Assembly (NCBI GenBank): GCA_020832545.1
Contig: JAFIEK010000039.1
Coordinates: 1-36,290, forward strand
Reading direction: 5' to 3'
Origin: Pararhodobacter sp.
GTDB lineage: Bacteria > Pseudomonadota > Alphaproteobacteria > Rhodobacterales > Rhodobacteraceae
Length of the DNA stretch: 36,290 nucleotides
Shown here: positions 1 through 34,420 of the stretch, piece after piece
How positions within the stretch are numbered: position 1 is the first letter of the stretch
Layout of the letters: each line of letters begins with the position of its first letter
Notes under the pieces: model-generated
What the model saw: the letters and a program-made list of their open reading frames with translations, nothing else
The model's database searches: none
Told to the model about the DNA's origin: nothing
Translations under genes and position numbers: made by a program

Positions 1-50
1 CCCTCTTCGCGTGCCGCGAATTCACCCCCCAGGATATTTAGAGACACAAA
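1..50 (-). repeat. Two-hairpin intergenic repeat, copy A (left end cut by window)
   Basis: This is a copy of the repeat also found near 24.2, 25.5 (twice), 29.5 and 34.4 kb. Read on the minus strand it has the module TTTTGTGTCTCTAAATATCC, a run of six G, TGAATT, and a hairpin TTCGCG-tgc-CGCGAA (13-20 region). The GC-rich second hairpin is lost beyond base 1. The hairpin arm differs from the usual TTGGCC/GGCCAA but both arms change together, so pairing is kept. Its outer edge touches the amidase start codon at 51. Confidence 0.75.
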
Positions 51-1481
51 ATGCATACCGGCACGGATTCTTTTCTGGCACTGGATGCGCTCGAACAGGC
101 AGCGTGTCTGGAGCGGCGCGAGATCAGCTGTGAAGAGCTGATGCGCGCCACGTTGGAGCGGATTGCGCGGGCCAACGGGCGGGTCAATGCGATTGTCAGC
201 CTGCGCGACGCGGATGCGCTGATGGCAGAGGCGCGCGCCGCCGATGACGCACCCCGGCGCGGCTGGTTGCATGGGCTGCCGGTGGCGGTGAAGGATCTGG
301 CCAACGCGGCGGGCCTGCCCACCTCAATGGGCTCGCCGCTGTTCGCCGGTCAGGTGGCGCAGACGGATGATCTGATGGTGGCACGGATGCGGGCGGCGGG
401 TGCGATCATCATCGGCAAGACCAACACGCCCGAATTTGGCCTTGGCAGCCACACGTTCAACCCGGTTCATGGTGCGACCGGCAACGCCTATGACCCCGCG
501 CTCAGTGCCGGGGGCTCATCCGGCGGGGCGGCGGTGGCGCTGGCCTGCGGCATGGTGGCCGTGGCCGATGGCTCTGACATGATGGGCAGTCTGCGCAACC
601 CGGCGGGCTGGAACAACGTCTATGGGATGCGGCCCAGCTGGGGGCGGGTGCCCGATGCAGCGGAGGGCGAGACCTTTCTGCACCCGCTGTCAACCGCCGG
701 TCCGATGGCCCGCAGCCCGCGCGATCTGGCGGCGCTGCTGGAGGTGCAGTCAGGGCCCGCGCCCGGCCGTCCGTTCTGCCTGCCGCGAGAGGATTTTGTA
801 GAGCATTTGCAGGCCGATGTCGCCGGGCGGCGGATCGGTTGGCTGGGTGACTGGGGCGGGGCCTATGCGATGGAGGCGGGCGTCATGGCGCTGTGCGAGA
901 CCGCGCTGGAGGATTTCACGGCTCTTGGGGTCAAGGTGGAGGCGCTGGCACCGCCCTTTCCCGCCGCTGAGTTGTGGCGCGCATGGCTGGACCTGCGCGC
1001 ATTCGCCAATGCCGACCGGCTGGGCCCGCTTTATGATGACCCGGCCAAGCGCGCCCTGCTCAAACCCGCCGCGATCTGGGAGATCGAGACCGGGCGGCAG
1101 CTGAGCATTGAGGCGGTACGGGCGGCCAGCCTGATCCGCTCGCGCTGGTATGCGCGCGCGGCAGAGATGTTCGAGCACTTTGATGCGCTGGCCCTGCCCA
1201 CGGCGCAGGTCTGGCCGTTTGCAGTGAACCTGATCCACCCGCAGGTGATTGGTGAGCGGGTGATGGACACCTATCACCGCTGGATGGAGGTGGTGATACC
1301 GGCCAGCCTGATCGGCCTGCCCGCGTTGGCGGTGCCAGCGGGCTTTGGTGCGGCGGGGTTGCCGATGGGGGTGCAGCTGATCGGGCGGCATGGCGACGAT
1401 CTGGGGCTGTTGCAATTGGCCGAGGCCTGGCACCGCGCGACCAACTGGCCCGGTCGCCGCCCGCCGCCGATGCTGGCCTGA
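51..1481 (+). CDS. Amidase, amidase-signature family (GatA/FAAH-like)
   Basis: The 476-residue protein belongs to the amidase-signature hydrolases, which cleave amides with a Ser-cisSer-Lys triad. The triad is visible: Lys81 in AVKD, cis-Ser156 in GGSSGG and nucleophile Ser180 in GSLRNPA. The 24-residue Ser-Ser spacing equals that of FAAH. The protein is complete from the LxALxxR-type N-terminal helix to the C-terminal GVQLIG motif. Substrate cannot be read from sequence; GatA of the tRNA amidotransferase is less likely because no gatB or gatC is adjacent. ATG51 is the only good start: the conserved N-terminus begins about residue 9. That ATG sits at the edge of repeat copy A and has only a weak AGGA 14 bases upstream. 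It converges with pncC with no spacer. Confidence 0.9.
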   Translation: MHTGTDSFLALDALEQAACLERREISCEELMRATLERIARANGRVNAIVSLRDADALMAEARAADDAPRRGWLHGLPVAVKDLANAAGLPTSMGSPLFAGQVAQTDDLMVARMRAAGAIIIGKTNTPEFGLGSHTFNPVHGATGNAYDPALSAGGSSGGAAVALACGMVAVADGSDMMGSLRNPAGWNNVYGMRPSWGRVPDAAEGETFLHPLSTAGPMARSPRDLAALLEVQSGPAPGRPFCLPREDFVEHLQADVAGRRIGWLGDWGGAYAMEAGVMALCETALEDFTALGVKVEALAPPFPAAELWRAWLDLRAFANADRLGPLYDDPAKRALLKPAAIWEIETGRQLSIEAVRAASLIRSRWYARAAEMFEHFDALALPTAQVWPFAVNLIHPQVIGERVMDTYHRWMEVVIPASLIGLPALAVPAGFGAAGLPMGVQLIGRHGDDLGLLQLAEAWHRATNWPGRRPPPMLA

Positions 1482-22779: not shown

Positions 22780-24174
22780 ATGTCGTCGCCGCAATCCGCC
22801 CTTCCCGCCGTGCTTGATCATATCGATGCCCAAATCGACGAGTCTCTCGCGCGGCTTCTGGACTTCCTGCGCCTGCCTTCGATCTCCACCGATCCCGCCT
22901 ACAAGGGGGATTGCGACCGTGCGGCCGACTGGCTGACAAGAGAACTGGCCGCGCTTGGGCTGGAGGCCCGCAAGGACGTCACGCCGGGTCACCCGATGGT
23001 GGTGGCGCATGGCCCTGAACAAAGCGGCACGCATGTGCTGTTCTATGGCCATTATGATGTCCAGCCGGTGGACCCGCTGAACCTCTGGCACCGCGACCCG
23101 TTCGATCCGGCAGTGGAAGAAACGCCGCAGGGCCGCGTGATCCGGGGGCGGGGCGCGGCCGATGACAAGGGCCAGTTGATGACCTTTGTCGAGGCCTGCC
23201 GCGCGTGGATCGCGGTCCACGGATCGCTGCCCATCCGGGTATCGATGTTCTTTGAGGGCGAAGAGGAATCCGGCTCGCCCTCGCTGGTCCCCTATATGAC
23301 CGAACAGGCCGAGGCGCTGAAAGCCGATCTGGCGCTGATCTGCGACACCGGCATGTTCGACCCCGAGACACCGGCCATCACAACCATGCTGCGCGGGCTG
23401 GCCAAACTGGAACTGGTGATCACCGGGCCGAACAAGGACCTGCATTCGGGCATGTTCGGGGGGGCTGCGATGAACCCGGCGCGGGTGCTGGCGCGCATCC
23501 TCGCCGATCTGCATGATGACGACGGGGCCATCACGTTGGACGGGTTCTATGACGGCGTGCCCGAACTGTCGAATGCCCAACGTGCGCAATGGGACGGGCT
23601 GGGGTTTGACGCCGACAGCTTCCTCGGCGGCGTCGGGCTGAAGGTGCCTGCCGGTGAGAAGGGGCGCACGGCGCTGGAAATGATCTGGTCGCGCCCCACC
23701 TGCGAGATCAACGGCATGACCTCGGGCTATACCGGCGCGGGCTTCAAGACGGTGCTGCCCTCGATGGCCTCGGCCAAGGTCAGCTTCCGGCTGGTCGGCA
23801 CCCAGGACCCGCAAAAGGTGCTCGATGCCTTCCGCGCCCATGTCGACGCCCGCCTACCCACGGATTGCAAGGCTGAAATCCTTGATGCCAGTGGCGCGCC
23901 CGCCTCGATGATGCCGCTCGACAACCCCGCGTTCGAGGCCGCGCGACAGGCGCTCAGCAATGAGTGGCCGCGCCCGGCGGCGTTTATCGGCTGTGGTGGC
24001 TCGATCCCCATCGCAGGTTACTTCCAGTCGATCCTGGGGATGGATTCGCTCCTGATCGGCTTTGGCCGTGACGACGACCAGATCCATTCGCCCAACGAGA
24101 AATACGACCTGGAAAGCTTCCACAAGGGCATCCGCTCATGGGCGCGCATTCTCGCCGCCCTCGCCCGGACCTGA
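22780..24174 (+). CDS. M20-family dipeptidase
   Basis: The 464-residue metallopeptidase belongs to family M20 (carnosinase/ArgE-DapE clan), cytosolic dipeptidases with two zinc ions. Ligands and catalytic residues are visible: His91 and Asp93 in GHYDVQPVD, bridging Asp128 in GRGAADDKGQ, catalytic Glu161 and metal-binding Glu162 in EGEEESGSP, Asp near 190 in CDTGMFD, and LHSGMFGG in the dimerisation domain. A late His in GRDDDQIHSPNEKYD completes the site. Start ATG22780 follows AGGAGG closely; the open frame extends upstream but that part is spacer. Substrate cannot be read. Confidence 0.92.
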   Translation: MSSPQSALPAVLDHIDAQIDESLARLLDFLRLPSISTDPAYKGDCDRAADWLTRELAALGLEARKDVTPGHPMVVAHGPEQSGTHVLFYGHYDVQPVDPLNLWHRDPFDPAVEETPQGRVIRGRGAADDKGQLMTFVEACRAWIAVHGSLPIRVSMFFEGEEESGSPSLVPYMTEQAEALKADLALICDTGMFDPETPAITTMLRGLAKLELVITGPNKDLHSGMFGGAAMNPARVLARILADLHDDDGAITLDGFYDGVPELSNAQRAQWDGLGFDADSFLGGVGLKVPAGEKGRTALEMIWSRPTCEINGMTSGYTGAGFKTVLPSMASAKVSFRLVGTQDPQKVLDAFRAHVDARLPTDCKAEILDASGAPASMMPLDNPAFEAARQALSNEWPRPAAFIGCGGSIPIAGYFQSILGMDSLLIGFGRDDDQIHSPNEKYDLESFHKGIRSWARILAALART

Positions 24175-24197
24175 CCAATCGCGCCCCACATGCCCCG

Positions 24198-24263
24198 TCA
24201 TCTTGCCACAAATACGCGCGGGGGTGAATTGGCCGCAGGCCAAGAGGGGGGCAGCGCCCCCCT
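24198..24263 (+). repeat. Two-hairpin intergenic repeat, copy B (class II head)
   Basis: It starts with the head TCATCTTGCCACAAATACGC, then GGGGGTGAATT, hairpin 1 TTGGCC-gca-GGCCAA (24229-24243) and hairpin 2 GGGGGGC-agc-GCCCCCC (24246-24262), followed by TGTTGTGTT. It lies 23 bases after the M20 stop and probably ends that transcript. Copy E at 34353 has the same head. Confidence 0.75.
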
Positions 24264-24285
24264 GTTGTGTTGAAACCAGAACCCC

Positions 24286-25467
24286 ATGCACCATATCCAG
24301 CAATCCCCCACCGAGCCCGCCTTCGTCCAGAACCCCTATCCGTTTTATGACCGGGCCCGCGCACTGGGGCCAGTTGTTCATTGGGATGAGATCGGCAAGC
24401 CCTGCGTGCTCAGCCATGCTGCCGTCAGCGCCATCCTGCGCGACCGCCGCTTCGGGCGCGAAATCCCGGTCGATCAGCAAAAGCCGGTGCCCGCACATCT
24501 TGAACCCTTCTACGCAGTGGAACGGCATTCGATGCTGGAACTGGAACCGCCCCGCCACACCATGTTGCGCAAACAGGTGCTGCGCGCCTTCACCTCGCGA
24601 CGGATCGCCGCGCTGGAACCCGAAATCGCGGCCCTCTCGCATGCGTTGATCGACCGCTTTCCATCTGGGCCTTTCGACCTGCTGGAGCACTTCGCCCAAA
24701 CCATCCCGGTGGTGGTGATCTGCCGCCTGCTGGGCGTGCCGGAAACCATGAAAGACCAGCTTCTGGACTGGTCGCATGCGATGGTGGCTATGTATCAGGC
24801 CACGCGAACCCGCGCGACCGAGGATGCGGCGGCGCAGGCTGCCGGTGCCTTTGCCGCTTTCCTGCGCGACTATGCCGAAGAACGCCGCAGCCGGCCCGCC
24901 GACGACCTGATCACCCACCTGATTGGCGCCGAGGACGGCGGCCAGACACTCACGCCGGATGCGCTGATCGCCACATGTATCCTGCTCCTGAACGCGGGCC
25001 ACGAGGCGACGGTGCATGCGCTCGCCAACGGCGCAAAGGCGCTACTTGAGGCCGAAGGGCCAAAAGACTGGCTGACGCCCGGCAAGATCGATGGCACCAT
25101 CGAGGAAATCCTTCGTTTTGACCCGCCGCTGCACCTGTTCACGCGCTACGCCTATGAAAGCGTCGAGGTGATGGGCCATATGTTCCGGCCCGGTGATCAG
25201 GTGGCTCTTCTGCTCGCCGCCGCCGGGCGCGACCCGCGCGCCTGTGAAGACCCCCACCGCTTCAACCCCGCGCGGCCGGTCAAACCACACCTCGCCTTCG
25301 GGGCCGGGCTGCACTTCTGCCTCGGTGCGCCGCTCGCCCGGCTGGAACTGGCGGTGGCACTGCCGATCCTTTTCAACCGCTGCCCGGACCTGCACCTGAC
25401 TGAAGAACCCAACTACGCTGACACCTACCATTTCCACGGCCTCATGCGGTTGATGGTCGACCGGTAG
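24286..25467 (+). CDS. Cytochrome P450
   Basis: The 393-residue soluble P450 has the bacterial class I layout. Haem is bound by Cys345 in FGAGLHFCLGAPLAR, the ExxR motif is Glu274-Ile-Leu-Arg277, and the I-helix oxygen groove is AGHEAT (237-242), where His replaces the more common variable residue and Ala-Thr follows. The N-terminal NPYPFYDRARALGPV and the LEPPRHTMLRK C-helix region (haem propionate contacts) are typical. No ferredoxin or reductase partner is adjacent, so electrons must come from elsewhere. The ATG has no clear ribosome site and lies only 23 bases after the GC hairpin of repeat B. Substrate unknown. Confidence 0.93.
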   Translation: MHHIQQSPTEPAFVQNPYPFYDRARALGPVVHWDEIGKPCVLSHAAVSAILRDRRFGREIPVDQQKPVPAHLEPFYAVERHSMLELEPPRHTMLRKQVLRAFTSRRIAALEPEIAALSHALIDRFPSGPFDLLEHFAQTIPVVVICRLLGVPETMKDQLLDWSHAMVAMYQATRTRATEDAAAQAAGAFAAFLRDYAEERRSRPADDLITHLIGAEDGGQTLTPDALIATCILLLNAGHEATVHALANGAKALLEAEGPKDWLTPGKIDGTIEEILRFDPPLHLFTRYAYESVEVMGHMFRPGDQVALLLAAAGRDPRACEDPHRFNPARPVKPHLAFGAGLHFCLGAPLARLELAVALPILFNRCPDLHLTEEPNYADTYHFHGLMRLMVDR

Positions 25468-25476
25468 AAAAAGAAA

Positions 25477-25536
25477 GGGGGCTCTGCCCCCGCCGCCCTA
25501 TGGGCGACTCCCCCGGGATATTTTCAGACACAAAAT
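25477..25536 (-). repeat. Two-hairpin intergenic repeat, copy C-left (class I head)
   Basis: Read on the minus strand it has the head ATTTTGTGTCTGAAAATATC, a G run, hairpin 1 CGCCC-ata-GGGCG (25497-25509 region) and hairpin 2 GGGGGC-aga-GCCCCC (25491-25477). Hairpin 1 differs in sequence from other copies but pairs perfectly. It lies 10 bases after the P450 stop and faces copy C-right. Confidence 0.75.
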
Positions 25537-25575
25537 GCAAAAAACAGACTGCATATTTTGTGTCTGAAAATATCC
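25516..25575. repeat. Long perfect inverted repeat between copies C-left and C-right
   Basis: The class I heads of the two copies face each other: 25516-25536 and 25555-25575 are perfect 21-base reverse complements around an 18-base loop. The match goes on as ATGCA/TGCAT with a two-base shift. Such a long stem can form a cruciform or a stable RNA hairpin. Confidence 0.85.
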
Positions 25576-25624
25576 AGGGGGTGAATTGGCAGCAGGCCAA
25601 GAGGGGGCAAAGCCCCCTTTCTTT
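25555..25624 (+). repeat. Two-hairpin intergenic repeat, copy C-right (class I head)
   Basis: Plus-strand head ATTTTGTGTCTGAAAATATC, AGGGGGTGAATT, hairpin 1 TTGGC-agca-GGCCAA (one mismatch), hairpin 2 GGGGGC-aaa-GCCCCC (25603-25617), then TTTCTTTG. The T-rich end makes this copy a good intrinsic terminator. It lies about 90 bases before trmJ. Confidence 0.75.
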
Positions 25625-25714
25625 GCGACGTGCCCGATGGGCGCGGGGGATTGATCTTTGCGCAGTGGCTGGGCATTGCGGGCAGCGACATGAGGCGAGG
25701 GCGAGAGGGAACGC

Positions 25715-26461
25715 ATGCGGCCATTGACGAGCGAGTTGGGATCGGCACCGGTGGTTGTTCTGGTGCGCCCACAGATGGGTGAGAATATTGGTGCGGCGGC
25801 GCGTGCAATGCTCAATTTCGGGCTGGAGCACATGCGCCTTGTCGCCCCGCGCGATGGCTGGCCGAACCCTGCGGCGGTGGCCATGGCCTCGGGCGCGGGG
25901 CCGGTGCTCGAGCATGCGGGACTGTTTTCAGACCTGCCCGGGGCGCTGGCCGATTGCGACTATGTCTTTGCCACCACCGCGCGGGTGCGTGGGCTGGTCA
26001 AGCCCGTTTATACGCCTGAGGCCGCGATGACTGAAGCGCGCGCATTGATCGGGGCGGGCAAGCGCGTGGCGGTGCTGTTTGGCCCCGAGCGTGCGGGTCT
26101 GGAGAATGAGGAGGTCGCGCGGGCCAATGCCATTGTCACCATTCCGGTAAACCCGGCCTTCTATTCGCTCAACCTTGCGCAGGGCGTTCTGCTGCTGGCC
26201 TATGAATGGATGCGCCAGACCACCGAGACCCCGGCGCGCGCCGAGAACCTTGCCGGCACCGATTTCGCCACCGGTCTTGAAGTGGAAAAGCTGGGCGATC
26301 ATTTCGAGGAGAAGCTGGAAGCGAGCGGCTTCTTCTTTCCGCAGCAGAAGGCGCCGATGATGAAGCTGAACCTGCGCAACATGCTGACCCGCTGGGGCCT
26401 GACCCGCGCCGAGGTGCAGACCCTTCACGGTATCCTGCGACAGCTTGTACGCGGGCGGTGA
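25715..26461 (+). CDS. trmJ: tRNA (cytidine/uridine-2'-O-)-methyltransferase TrmJ (SPOUT family)
   Basis: The 248-residue protein is a SPOUT methyltransferase of the TrmJ type, which 2'-O-methylates position 32 of tRNAs with S-adenosylmethionine. Family motifs are LVRPQMGENIGAAARAMLNFG (about 16-36, motif 1), VLFGPERAGLENEE near 118 (motif 2) and IPVNPAFYSLNLAQGVLLLAYE near 142 (motif 3, the knot). A C-terminal helical extension (about 185-248) with RNMLTRWGLTRAEVQTLHGI is typical of TrmJ. A GAGAGGGAA ribosome site precedes the ATG. A broader label of TrmH-family RNA methyltransferase would also be safe. Confidence 0.9.
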   Translation: MRPLTSELGSAPVVVLVRPQMGENIGAAARAMLNFGLEHMRLVAPRDGWPNPAAVAMASGAGPVLEHAGLFSDLPGALADCDYVFATTARVRGLVKPVYTPEAAMTEARALIGAGKRVAVLFGPERAGLENEEVARANAIVTIPVNPAFYSLNLAQGVLLLAYEWMRQTTETPARAENLAGTDFATGLEVEKLGDHFEEKLEASGFFFPQQKAPMMKLNLRNMLTRWGLTRAEVQTLHGILRQLVRGR

Positions 26462-29438: not shown

Positions 29439-29504
29439 GGGGGGCGTTGCCCCCCTCTTGGCCTACGGCCAATTCACCCCCCAGGATATTTTCAGACACA
29501 AAAT
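29439..29504 (-). repeat. Two-hairpin intergenic repeat, copy D (class I head)
   Basis: Read on the minus strand it starts five bases after the LLM oxidoreductase stop with ATTTTGTGTCTGAAAATATC, then the G run and TGAATT, hairpin 1 TTGGCC-gta-GGCCAA and hairpin 2 GGGGGGC-aac-GCCCCCC (29455-29439). It sits between two convergent genes and can serve both as a terminator. Confidence 0.8.
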
Positions 29505-34324: not shown

Positions 34325-34360
34325 GGGGCGCCTGTCGGAAAACGGCGCCCCTTCATCTTG
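34325..34360 (+). terminator. Terminator of the SDR-oxygenase-reductase operon
   Basis: An 8-bp perfect stem GGGGCGCC (34325-34332) and GGCGCCCC (34344-34351) with an 11-base loop is followed by TTCATCTTG. It starts eight bases after the flavin reductase stop and runs into repeat copy E. Confidence 0.55.
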
Positions 34361-34420
34361 CCAGAAATACGCGCGGGGGTGAATTGGCCGCAAGGCCAAG
34401 AGGGGGCGGCAGCCCCCCTT
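34353..34420 (+). repeat. Two-hairpin intergenic repeat, copy E (class II head)
   Basis: Head TCATCTTGCCAGAAATACGC, GGGGGTGAATT, hairpin 1 TTGGCC-gcaa-GGCCAA and hairpin 2 GGGGGC-ggca-GCCCCC (34402-34417), then TTCTTCG. The head is 19/20 identical to copy B. It lies between the convergent flavin reductase and MarR genes. Confidence 0.75.

Follow-up and report, generated by a model that had tools for sequence, protein, structure and literature searches.

The two-hairpin repeat described here is, on balance, probably a Rhodobacteraceae family of REP/BIME-like extragenic palindromic repeats that evolves in concert; we infer its mover and its function. Among the bacterial palindromic repeats known so far, it seems to form a new branch. 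The window, i.e. the whole stretch of 36,290 nucleotides from Pararhodobacter sp. that was analysed, is contig C85 of a 4.37-Mb draft genome consisting of 102 contigs. In this family the structure of the first hairpin is conserved while its sequence is free.

In element orientation (head first, second hairpin last) the unit is composed of a head of ~20 nt, at most 4 nt of spacer, a G run (G run 1), TGA, (AT), the first hairpin H1, (A), GA, the second hairpin H2 and T. H2 itself is formed by a G run (G run 2), inner bases and a C run. A sequence-only reading of this DNA had listed six copies, always between genes, each with a G run, TGAATT or its variant and two hairpins, as well as two different heads fused to the same tail. 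All six copies are in place (Table 1), but the head of the contig-end copy (1-52) overlaps the ATG (51-53) of ORF 51-1481, and its H2 is almost wholly lost at the contig end. The modularity is real, but the head types of the family are three and not two: class I, class II and a third one (TTCATCTACTCnAAAATATCC) with a class-II-like left part and a class-I-like right part. The tails also fall into two types, A (with TGA) and B (GGGGGA-GTCGCCC..GGGCGGC-GGGGGC). The latter is carried by copy 25477 and is devoid of TGAATT. Copies 25477 and 25555 proved to be a single head-to-head composite with tail type B in its left half. Some H2 hairpins of the own genome (e.g. at loci L034, L045, L057, L078 and L094) have the loop CAGACA, which is complementary to TGTCTG of head class I; pairing of the two was considered and dropped, as this loop is also found with heads II and III.

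Table 1. Position of the repeat parts within the window; sequences are given on the element strand.
Copy	Feature	Position	Strand	Details
Contig end	whole copy	1..52	-	H1 at 6-20 (TTCGCG-GCA-CGCGAA), G run, head class I to 52
24198	head class II	24198..24217	+	TCATCTTGCCACAAATACGC
24198	G run 1 and TGA	24220..24227	+	
24198	H1	24229..24243	+	TTGGCC-GCA-GGCCAA
24198	H2	24246..24262	+	GGGGGG-CAGCG-CCCCCC
Composite, left half	H2, tail type B	25477..25491	-	9 nt after ORF 24286-25467
Composite, left half	H1, tail type B	25492..25508	-	GTCGCCC-ATA-GGGCGGC
Composite, left half	head class I	25516..25536	-	
Composite	spacer separating both heads	25537..25554	.	
Composite, right half	head class I	25555..25575	+	
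Composite, right half	G run 1 and TGA, tail type A	25577..25584	+	
Composite, right half	H1	25586..25600	+	TTGGCA-GCA-GGCCAA, one mismatch
Composite, right half	H2, then T	25603..25618	+	GGGGG-CAAAG-CCCCC
29439	H2	29439..29455	-	
29439	H1	29458..29472	-	TTGGCC-GTA-GGCCAA
29439	G run 1	29477..29482	-	
29439	head class I	29484..29504	-	
34353	head class II	34353..34372	+	
34353	G run 1 and TGA	34375..34382	+	
34353	H1	34384..34399	+	TTGGCC-GCAA-GGCCAA
34353	H2	34402..34418	+	

The expectation that such repeats are frequent in the Rhodobacteraceae was borne out. The search pattern GGGGTGAATN{8,22}AGNGGGG gave 89 matches over the 4.37-Mb draft, corresponding to 76 distinct places after removal of 13 overlapping double reports, while the reversed pattern gave 0 matches in the same draft; BLAST with copy 24198 as a query scored 40 of 159 candidates. 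The repeat is present in 17 of the 18 genus genomes (own genome counted). A stricter exact pattern matches 133 of 394 family genomes; due to its strictness the lack of a match in the other 261 may reflect divergence instead of absence. Outside the family, no match was obtained in any of 380 alphaproteobacteria, as compared with matches in two of the five family members in the same draw of 385 genomes, where the reversed control yielded one match each in two genomes. The scan of named genomes gave at least 120 loci, and the family name for the range of the repeat is derived from these named matches. Among the 80 titles listed, 78 are, judging by name, Rhodobacterales; one of the named matches, Carideicomes, is filed by NCBI under Paracoccaceae. 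The other two are an untyped Proteobacteria MAG and Enemella evansiae (an actinomycete, Actinomycetota), whose contig with the copy (L157) is possibly a stray one resulting from contamination or mis-binning. Strain SP108 of Rhodobacter capsulatus is among the named matches. Matches were also found in 20 plasmid records, none of which covers >80% of the query; judging by their names, all are presumably Rhodobacterales.

Several contigs begin or end in copies or within ~100 nt of them (window 1-52, the end of C37 and the starts of C21, C42, C80, C87 and C25), so that the repeat probably breaks the assembly of this draft. The H1 at the end of C37 is identical to that at the window start. Rfam gave 0 matches for the whole window at the gathering score and nothing credible for 24150-25720 at E up to 5. 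All of the latter matches are far below gathering: seven, located at the head palindrome, are to lsy-6 and to families of the microRNA type, and one lies at 24241-24268.

Most copies of the repeat stay in place, and some of their modules are exchanged. Nine head-to-head pairs were recognized among the fetched own-genome loci, and all nine, as judged by eye, combine a type A tail with a type B or B-like one. In relative G001, 31 composites were aligned; these are up to about 300 bp long. Their left tails are of several kinds, their centre measures ~50 nt, and they have a further hairpin. G001 was compared with G012 over 234 kb of collinear DNA with long matches of 87–93% identity. Partners are in place in G012 for 12 of the 14 G001 loci and in G001 for 12 of the 12 G012 loci. 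At 4 of the 12 common loci the tail is clearly replaced, as judged by identity: the right tail at 207183, the left tail together with the centre at 40745, and tails at 74950 and 144190. One of the four scored centres is inverted, and another (L326:6630) looks inverted by eye. In single pairs the head diverges more than the tail in 5 of 7 cases.

Over a longer scale, copies are gained and lost. None of the gaps inspected in 14 relatives shows copy 24198 (the G005 gap being covered in part and G006 lacking the second gene), and the gap at its site measures 56 nt in G004 vs 111 nt in the own genome (G000). At site 34353 the own genome has head II, whereas G004 has head I and G014 has tail B; after the gene to the left of this site nine relatives have, by eye, the element (two), a stem with a T-run (four) or neither (three).

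Further observations concern the surroundings and centres of the copies. The genes flanking site 34353, adjacent in G000 and G004, lie on separate contigs of G014 (loci L227 and L240), and both end in elements with identical H1 arms. This is as expected if recombination took place between copies, in a single case from a draft genome and with no control. The genes flanking the composite (25467-25751) are adjacent in only 2 of the 13 genus relatives with listed matches to both (by eye, in draft contigs and with no control). The motif TTAA-N7-TTAA occurs in 34 of 55 G001 composite centres counted per strand (L286-L325). The CtrA consensus is given as TTAA-N7-TTAAC in PMC4046655, and by motif likeness the repeat may spread CtrA-like sites.

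Some of these features could point to an active REPIN-like non-autonomous transposon, mobilized in trans by some single-strand transposase that is not a recognizable Y1, with single copies as leftover halves. The H1 sequences that are abundant in a genome are specific to it, pairs are head-to-head, and copy 24198 is present in the own genome and not seen in the 14 relatives. This explanation is possible but not likely. The Y1/RAYT transposase domain PF01797 has no match in the own genome and is found in 2 of 18 genus genomes (the same search was positive in 5 of 14 control genomes). In addition, G001 and G012 have 12 of 14 positions in common, and neither a target-site duplication nor a fixed target could be shown.

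The conservation of H1 structure was evaluated on 53 distinct copies of equal length, chosen by fixed flanks and not by pairing. In this set 96.2% of the cells are paired vs 68.2% in shuffled and 23–57% in slid alignments, the covariation score amounts to 0.660 vs 0.158 ± 0.022 for shuffled and ≤0.122 for slid ones, and all six pairs show changes on both sides. Covariation of H1, asserted earlier from a few copies, is thereby established. The accompanying statement that the partner arm changes to match each time is correct for the great majority of cells but not for all copies: there is one A.G mismatch in copy 25555 (TTGGCA/GGCCAA) and one T.G pair in copy 25477. The 285 distinct H1 sequences comprise 126 arm pairs, and 262 of these sequences are perfect palindromes, as compared with 123 perfect stems among 184 ordinary T-run terminators of the same DNA. 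The arms of H2 exhibit hardly any variation. The constancy of the flanks carries no information since the search patterns preset them. The H1 sequences are related by descent and swapping, and therefore the counts of loops and pairs are not independent. Moreover, whole modules are replaced at fixed sites between near relatives, so the covariation mixes the swapping of ready-made hairpins with compensatory change. The covariation is true, but the earlier argument from it to selection, as opposed to shared ancestry, is qualified by this swapping.

The abundance of perfect palindromes could in principle result from palindrome repair without selection, a change in one arm being copied to the other arm by hairpin template switching. 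The flipping of a centre between inverted heads is also what template switching could produce. Such repair, however, predicts neither the loop bias on one strand nor the C-G closing pair described below, and we consider it improbable as the explanation of H1.

As follows from Table 1, H1 lies between two G runs. An intrastrand triplex could be imagined, in which G run 1 folds back onto H2 and supplies the third strand (GGGGGT on AGGGGG-CCCCCT), H1 being the capped turn; one family of G/C-rich repeats with an intrastrand triplex has been described (PMC4666352). G run 1 and G run 2 covary in length in the own genome (rho 0.56, n=78) and in G001 (rho 0.69, n=40), close to the coupling of G run 2 with the C run (0.63 and 0.79). 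Tail swapping alone, however, would also produce this coupling, and tail B is devoid of the matching T. For the named loci rho is 0.46 (n=134), but there the search pattern preset G run 2 of five, and G run 1 shows rho of 0.09 with the C run. The triplex explanation appears quite doubtful.

The loops of H1 are strongly biased on one strand. The 176 distinct triloops include 112 GNA and 2 TNC; among the 97 tetraloops there are 45 GNNA, 15 CNNG and 13 GNAB, together 73. To judge by the titles of papers on them, the loops d(cGNAg), d(cGNNAg), d(cGNABg) and d(cCNNGg) are unusually stable in DNA. The closing pair is C-G in 295 of 340 entries vs 57 of 108 terminators with loops of 3–4. The 184 ordinary stem and T-run terminators of the same DNA, in which not more than one wobble was allowed, served as a control. 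GNA triloops make up 112/176 in H1 vs 4/32 in these terminators (p=8e-8), the GNRA:GNYA ratio is 17:28 vs 14:3 (p=0.004), and CNNG tetraloops are as frequent in the terminators (16/76) as in H1 (15/97). On the element strand of H1 the ratio of G.T to A.C is 12:4 among 1654 pairs (p=0.08); the terminators exhibit an equal ratio (45:16), and hence this excess is not decisive between RNA and DNA. The likeness of H1 and terminators in CNNG loops and in this ratio speaks against the DNA reading. With regard to the strands of the neighbour genes, GNA/GNNA loops are found in 40/52 (-,-), 24/41 (+,+), 60/85 (+,-) and 6/9 (-,+) copies. The preference thus persists in contexts whose mRNA strand differs from the element strand ((-,-) vs (+,+), p=0.07), with the reservation that module swapping between contexts could blur the outcome of this test and that copies are not independent. 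Being independent of the transcribed strand, the loop bias leans to single-stranded DNA, and the element is possibly shaped as folded DNA and not as an ordinary transcription terminator.

The gene context was analysed for 207 extracted copies (75 own, 132 named), of which 187 were placed between two called genes, 3 are inside called ORFs and 17 were left unplaced (no H2 match or no near neighbour); the gene calls come from a codon-score script, not from annotation. The neighbours of the 187 copies are convergent in 85 cases, (-,-) in 52, (+,+) in 41 and divergent in 9. The null set of 472 adjacent gene pairs with gaps of 60–600 nt at non-own loci contains 97 convergent, 126 (-,-), 132 (+,+) and 117 divergent pairs. 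Convergent gaps are thus favoured (p=3.7e-10) and divergent ones avoided (p=1.5e-10). The end of H2 is within 30 nt of the stop of the minus gene in 92 of 137 copies. REPs are likewise biased toward gene 3' ends.

This strong bias toward 3' ends and convergent genes, with H2 so close to the stop codon, would suit an RNA element, i.e. a bidirectional transcription end or a 3'-end shield. H1 and H2 would fold in the mRNA. They would halt RNA polymerase or, once Rho-dependent termination has occurred, hold off 3' exonucleases, and would in this way keep convergent genes apart. The four relatives with a stem and T-run in place of the element at site 34353 and the terminator-like G.T excess agree with it. 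On the other hand, at least 5 T in the 8 nt after H2 are present in just 27 of 187 copies (fewer than 5 in 160), the element strand does not prefer the sense direction (52 (-,-) vs 41 (+,+)), the GNNA loops lack the GNRA preference of terminators, and the loop bias persists off the transcribed strand. Selection on a folded RNA, as proposed at first sight of the sequence, is for these reasons not favoured, and an RNA element is a tentative alternative only. Since the T-rich tail is so rare, most copies are not canonical intrinsic terminators, in line with the previous opinion that the repeat is no simple terminator; the 27 T-tailed copies could be terminators.

An 8-bp stem (GGGGCGCC/GGCGCCCC) at 34325-34351 abuts the class II head, at the site where the four relatives have a stem with a T-run. 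Insertion into existing terminators, suggested by this site, was rejected: stems abutting heads are not clearly enriched. A stem of at least 6 ending at the head is found in 13/104 copies vs 98/520 control positions with a plus gene upstream, and in 7/54 vs 27/270 with a minus gene. In the two-contig relative G017 the orientations are mixed in the listed range of 0–3.1 Mb; from 1 to 2 Mb plus copies are more numerous (by eye).

The REP/BIME-like explanation that we prefer may be put as follows. When the element strand becomes single-stranded during replication or repair, H1 and H2 would fold as DNA hairpins. Gene conversion or template switching would then lead to recombination among the many similar copies and their inverted heads, and this would exchange entire tails, invert the centre and spread modules within one genome. 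H1 would be retained because any stable hairpin serves, whatever its sequence. Gene 3' ends would be mainly the sites where the element is tolerated, and the hairpins may secondarily shield or terminate transcripts that arrive from either side. As neither a REP tag nor a Y1 transposase is found in the own genome, nothing here explains the arrival of copies at new places.

An alternative, which we hold to be unlikely, is a family-wide DNA structure module. One strand would form H2, G run 1 would add the third strand, an interchangeable C(GNA)G or C(GNNA)G mini-hairpin would serve as the cap, and a putative single-strand DNA enzyme would read the whole. The covariation would then mean selection on folded DNA instead of RNA, and the element would be a cassette with tails and centre exchanged at fixed sites.

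Covariation is usually taken as a sign of functional RNA, and the large and clean case presented here may point to folded DNA. It has built-in controls, namely two strands, four gene contexts and the ordinary terminators of the same DNA. If the folded DNA reading is true, covariation screens need a DNA alternative. The REP/BIME-like family, if true, would help to account for the mosaic nature of gene 3' ends in Rhodobacteraceae, for breaks in their assemblies and possibly for points of rearrangement. The repeat is also dense enough for testing the concerted evolution of bacterial repeats without RAYT.

Among the best matches of a literature search on Rhodobacteraceae or relatives, which covered few subscription papers, no account of such a repeat was listed. 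With a Rho-independent terminator the present repeat shares a GC-rich hairpin (H2) at gene 3' ends; it differs in that the T-tract is mostly missing and in the additional conserved head, G run and H1. As to MITEs, the composites are inverted repeats, and the relatives are too distant for a target-site duplication to be read. TM_ECO repeats, according to PMC4666352, are G/C-rich intrastrand triplex repeats dispersed in many genomes and linked to rearrangement and instability. They are alike in being dispersed and in having runs of G and of C with the potential for a purine-motif triplex. Their order is, however, C-G-G with stems of 9, in contrast to G-G-C here, with H1 between the G runs and runs of 5–6.

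The CGTC-tagged REPs, as far as the text of PMC3733652 describes them, occur in all alphaproteobacterial orders, apparently without a dedicated transposase; the word 'Rhodobacter' is absent from its main text. They resemble the present repeat in being mostly alphaproteobacterial, mainly head-to-head dimers and apparently free of a transposase of their own. They differ by the CGTC, TGTC or CCTC tag next to the stem, while the present repeat is longer, shows no such conserved tag, and has a two-hairpin tail between G runs. Inspection of the copies found revealed no conserved GTAG or CGTC tag, the H1 flanks being GGGGTGA and GAGGGG. The two kinds are set apart here by the text description, and they may yet be related. 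Finally, BIMEs and REPs (GTAG, RAYT), as described in PMC2817692, are GTAG-tagged and associated with RAYT, whereas the present repeat has two hairpins with a conserved head and a free H1 arm sequence. Both are short extragenic palindromes that are present in numerous copies in a genome and form inverted doublets as well as mosaics.
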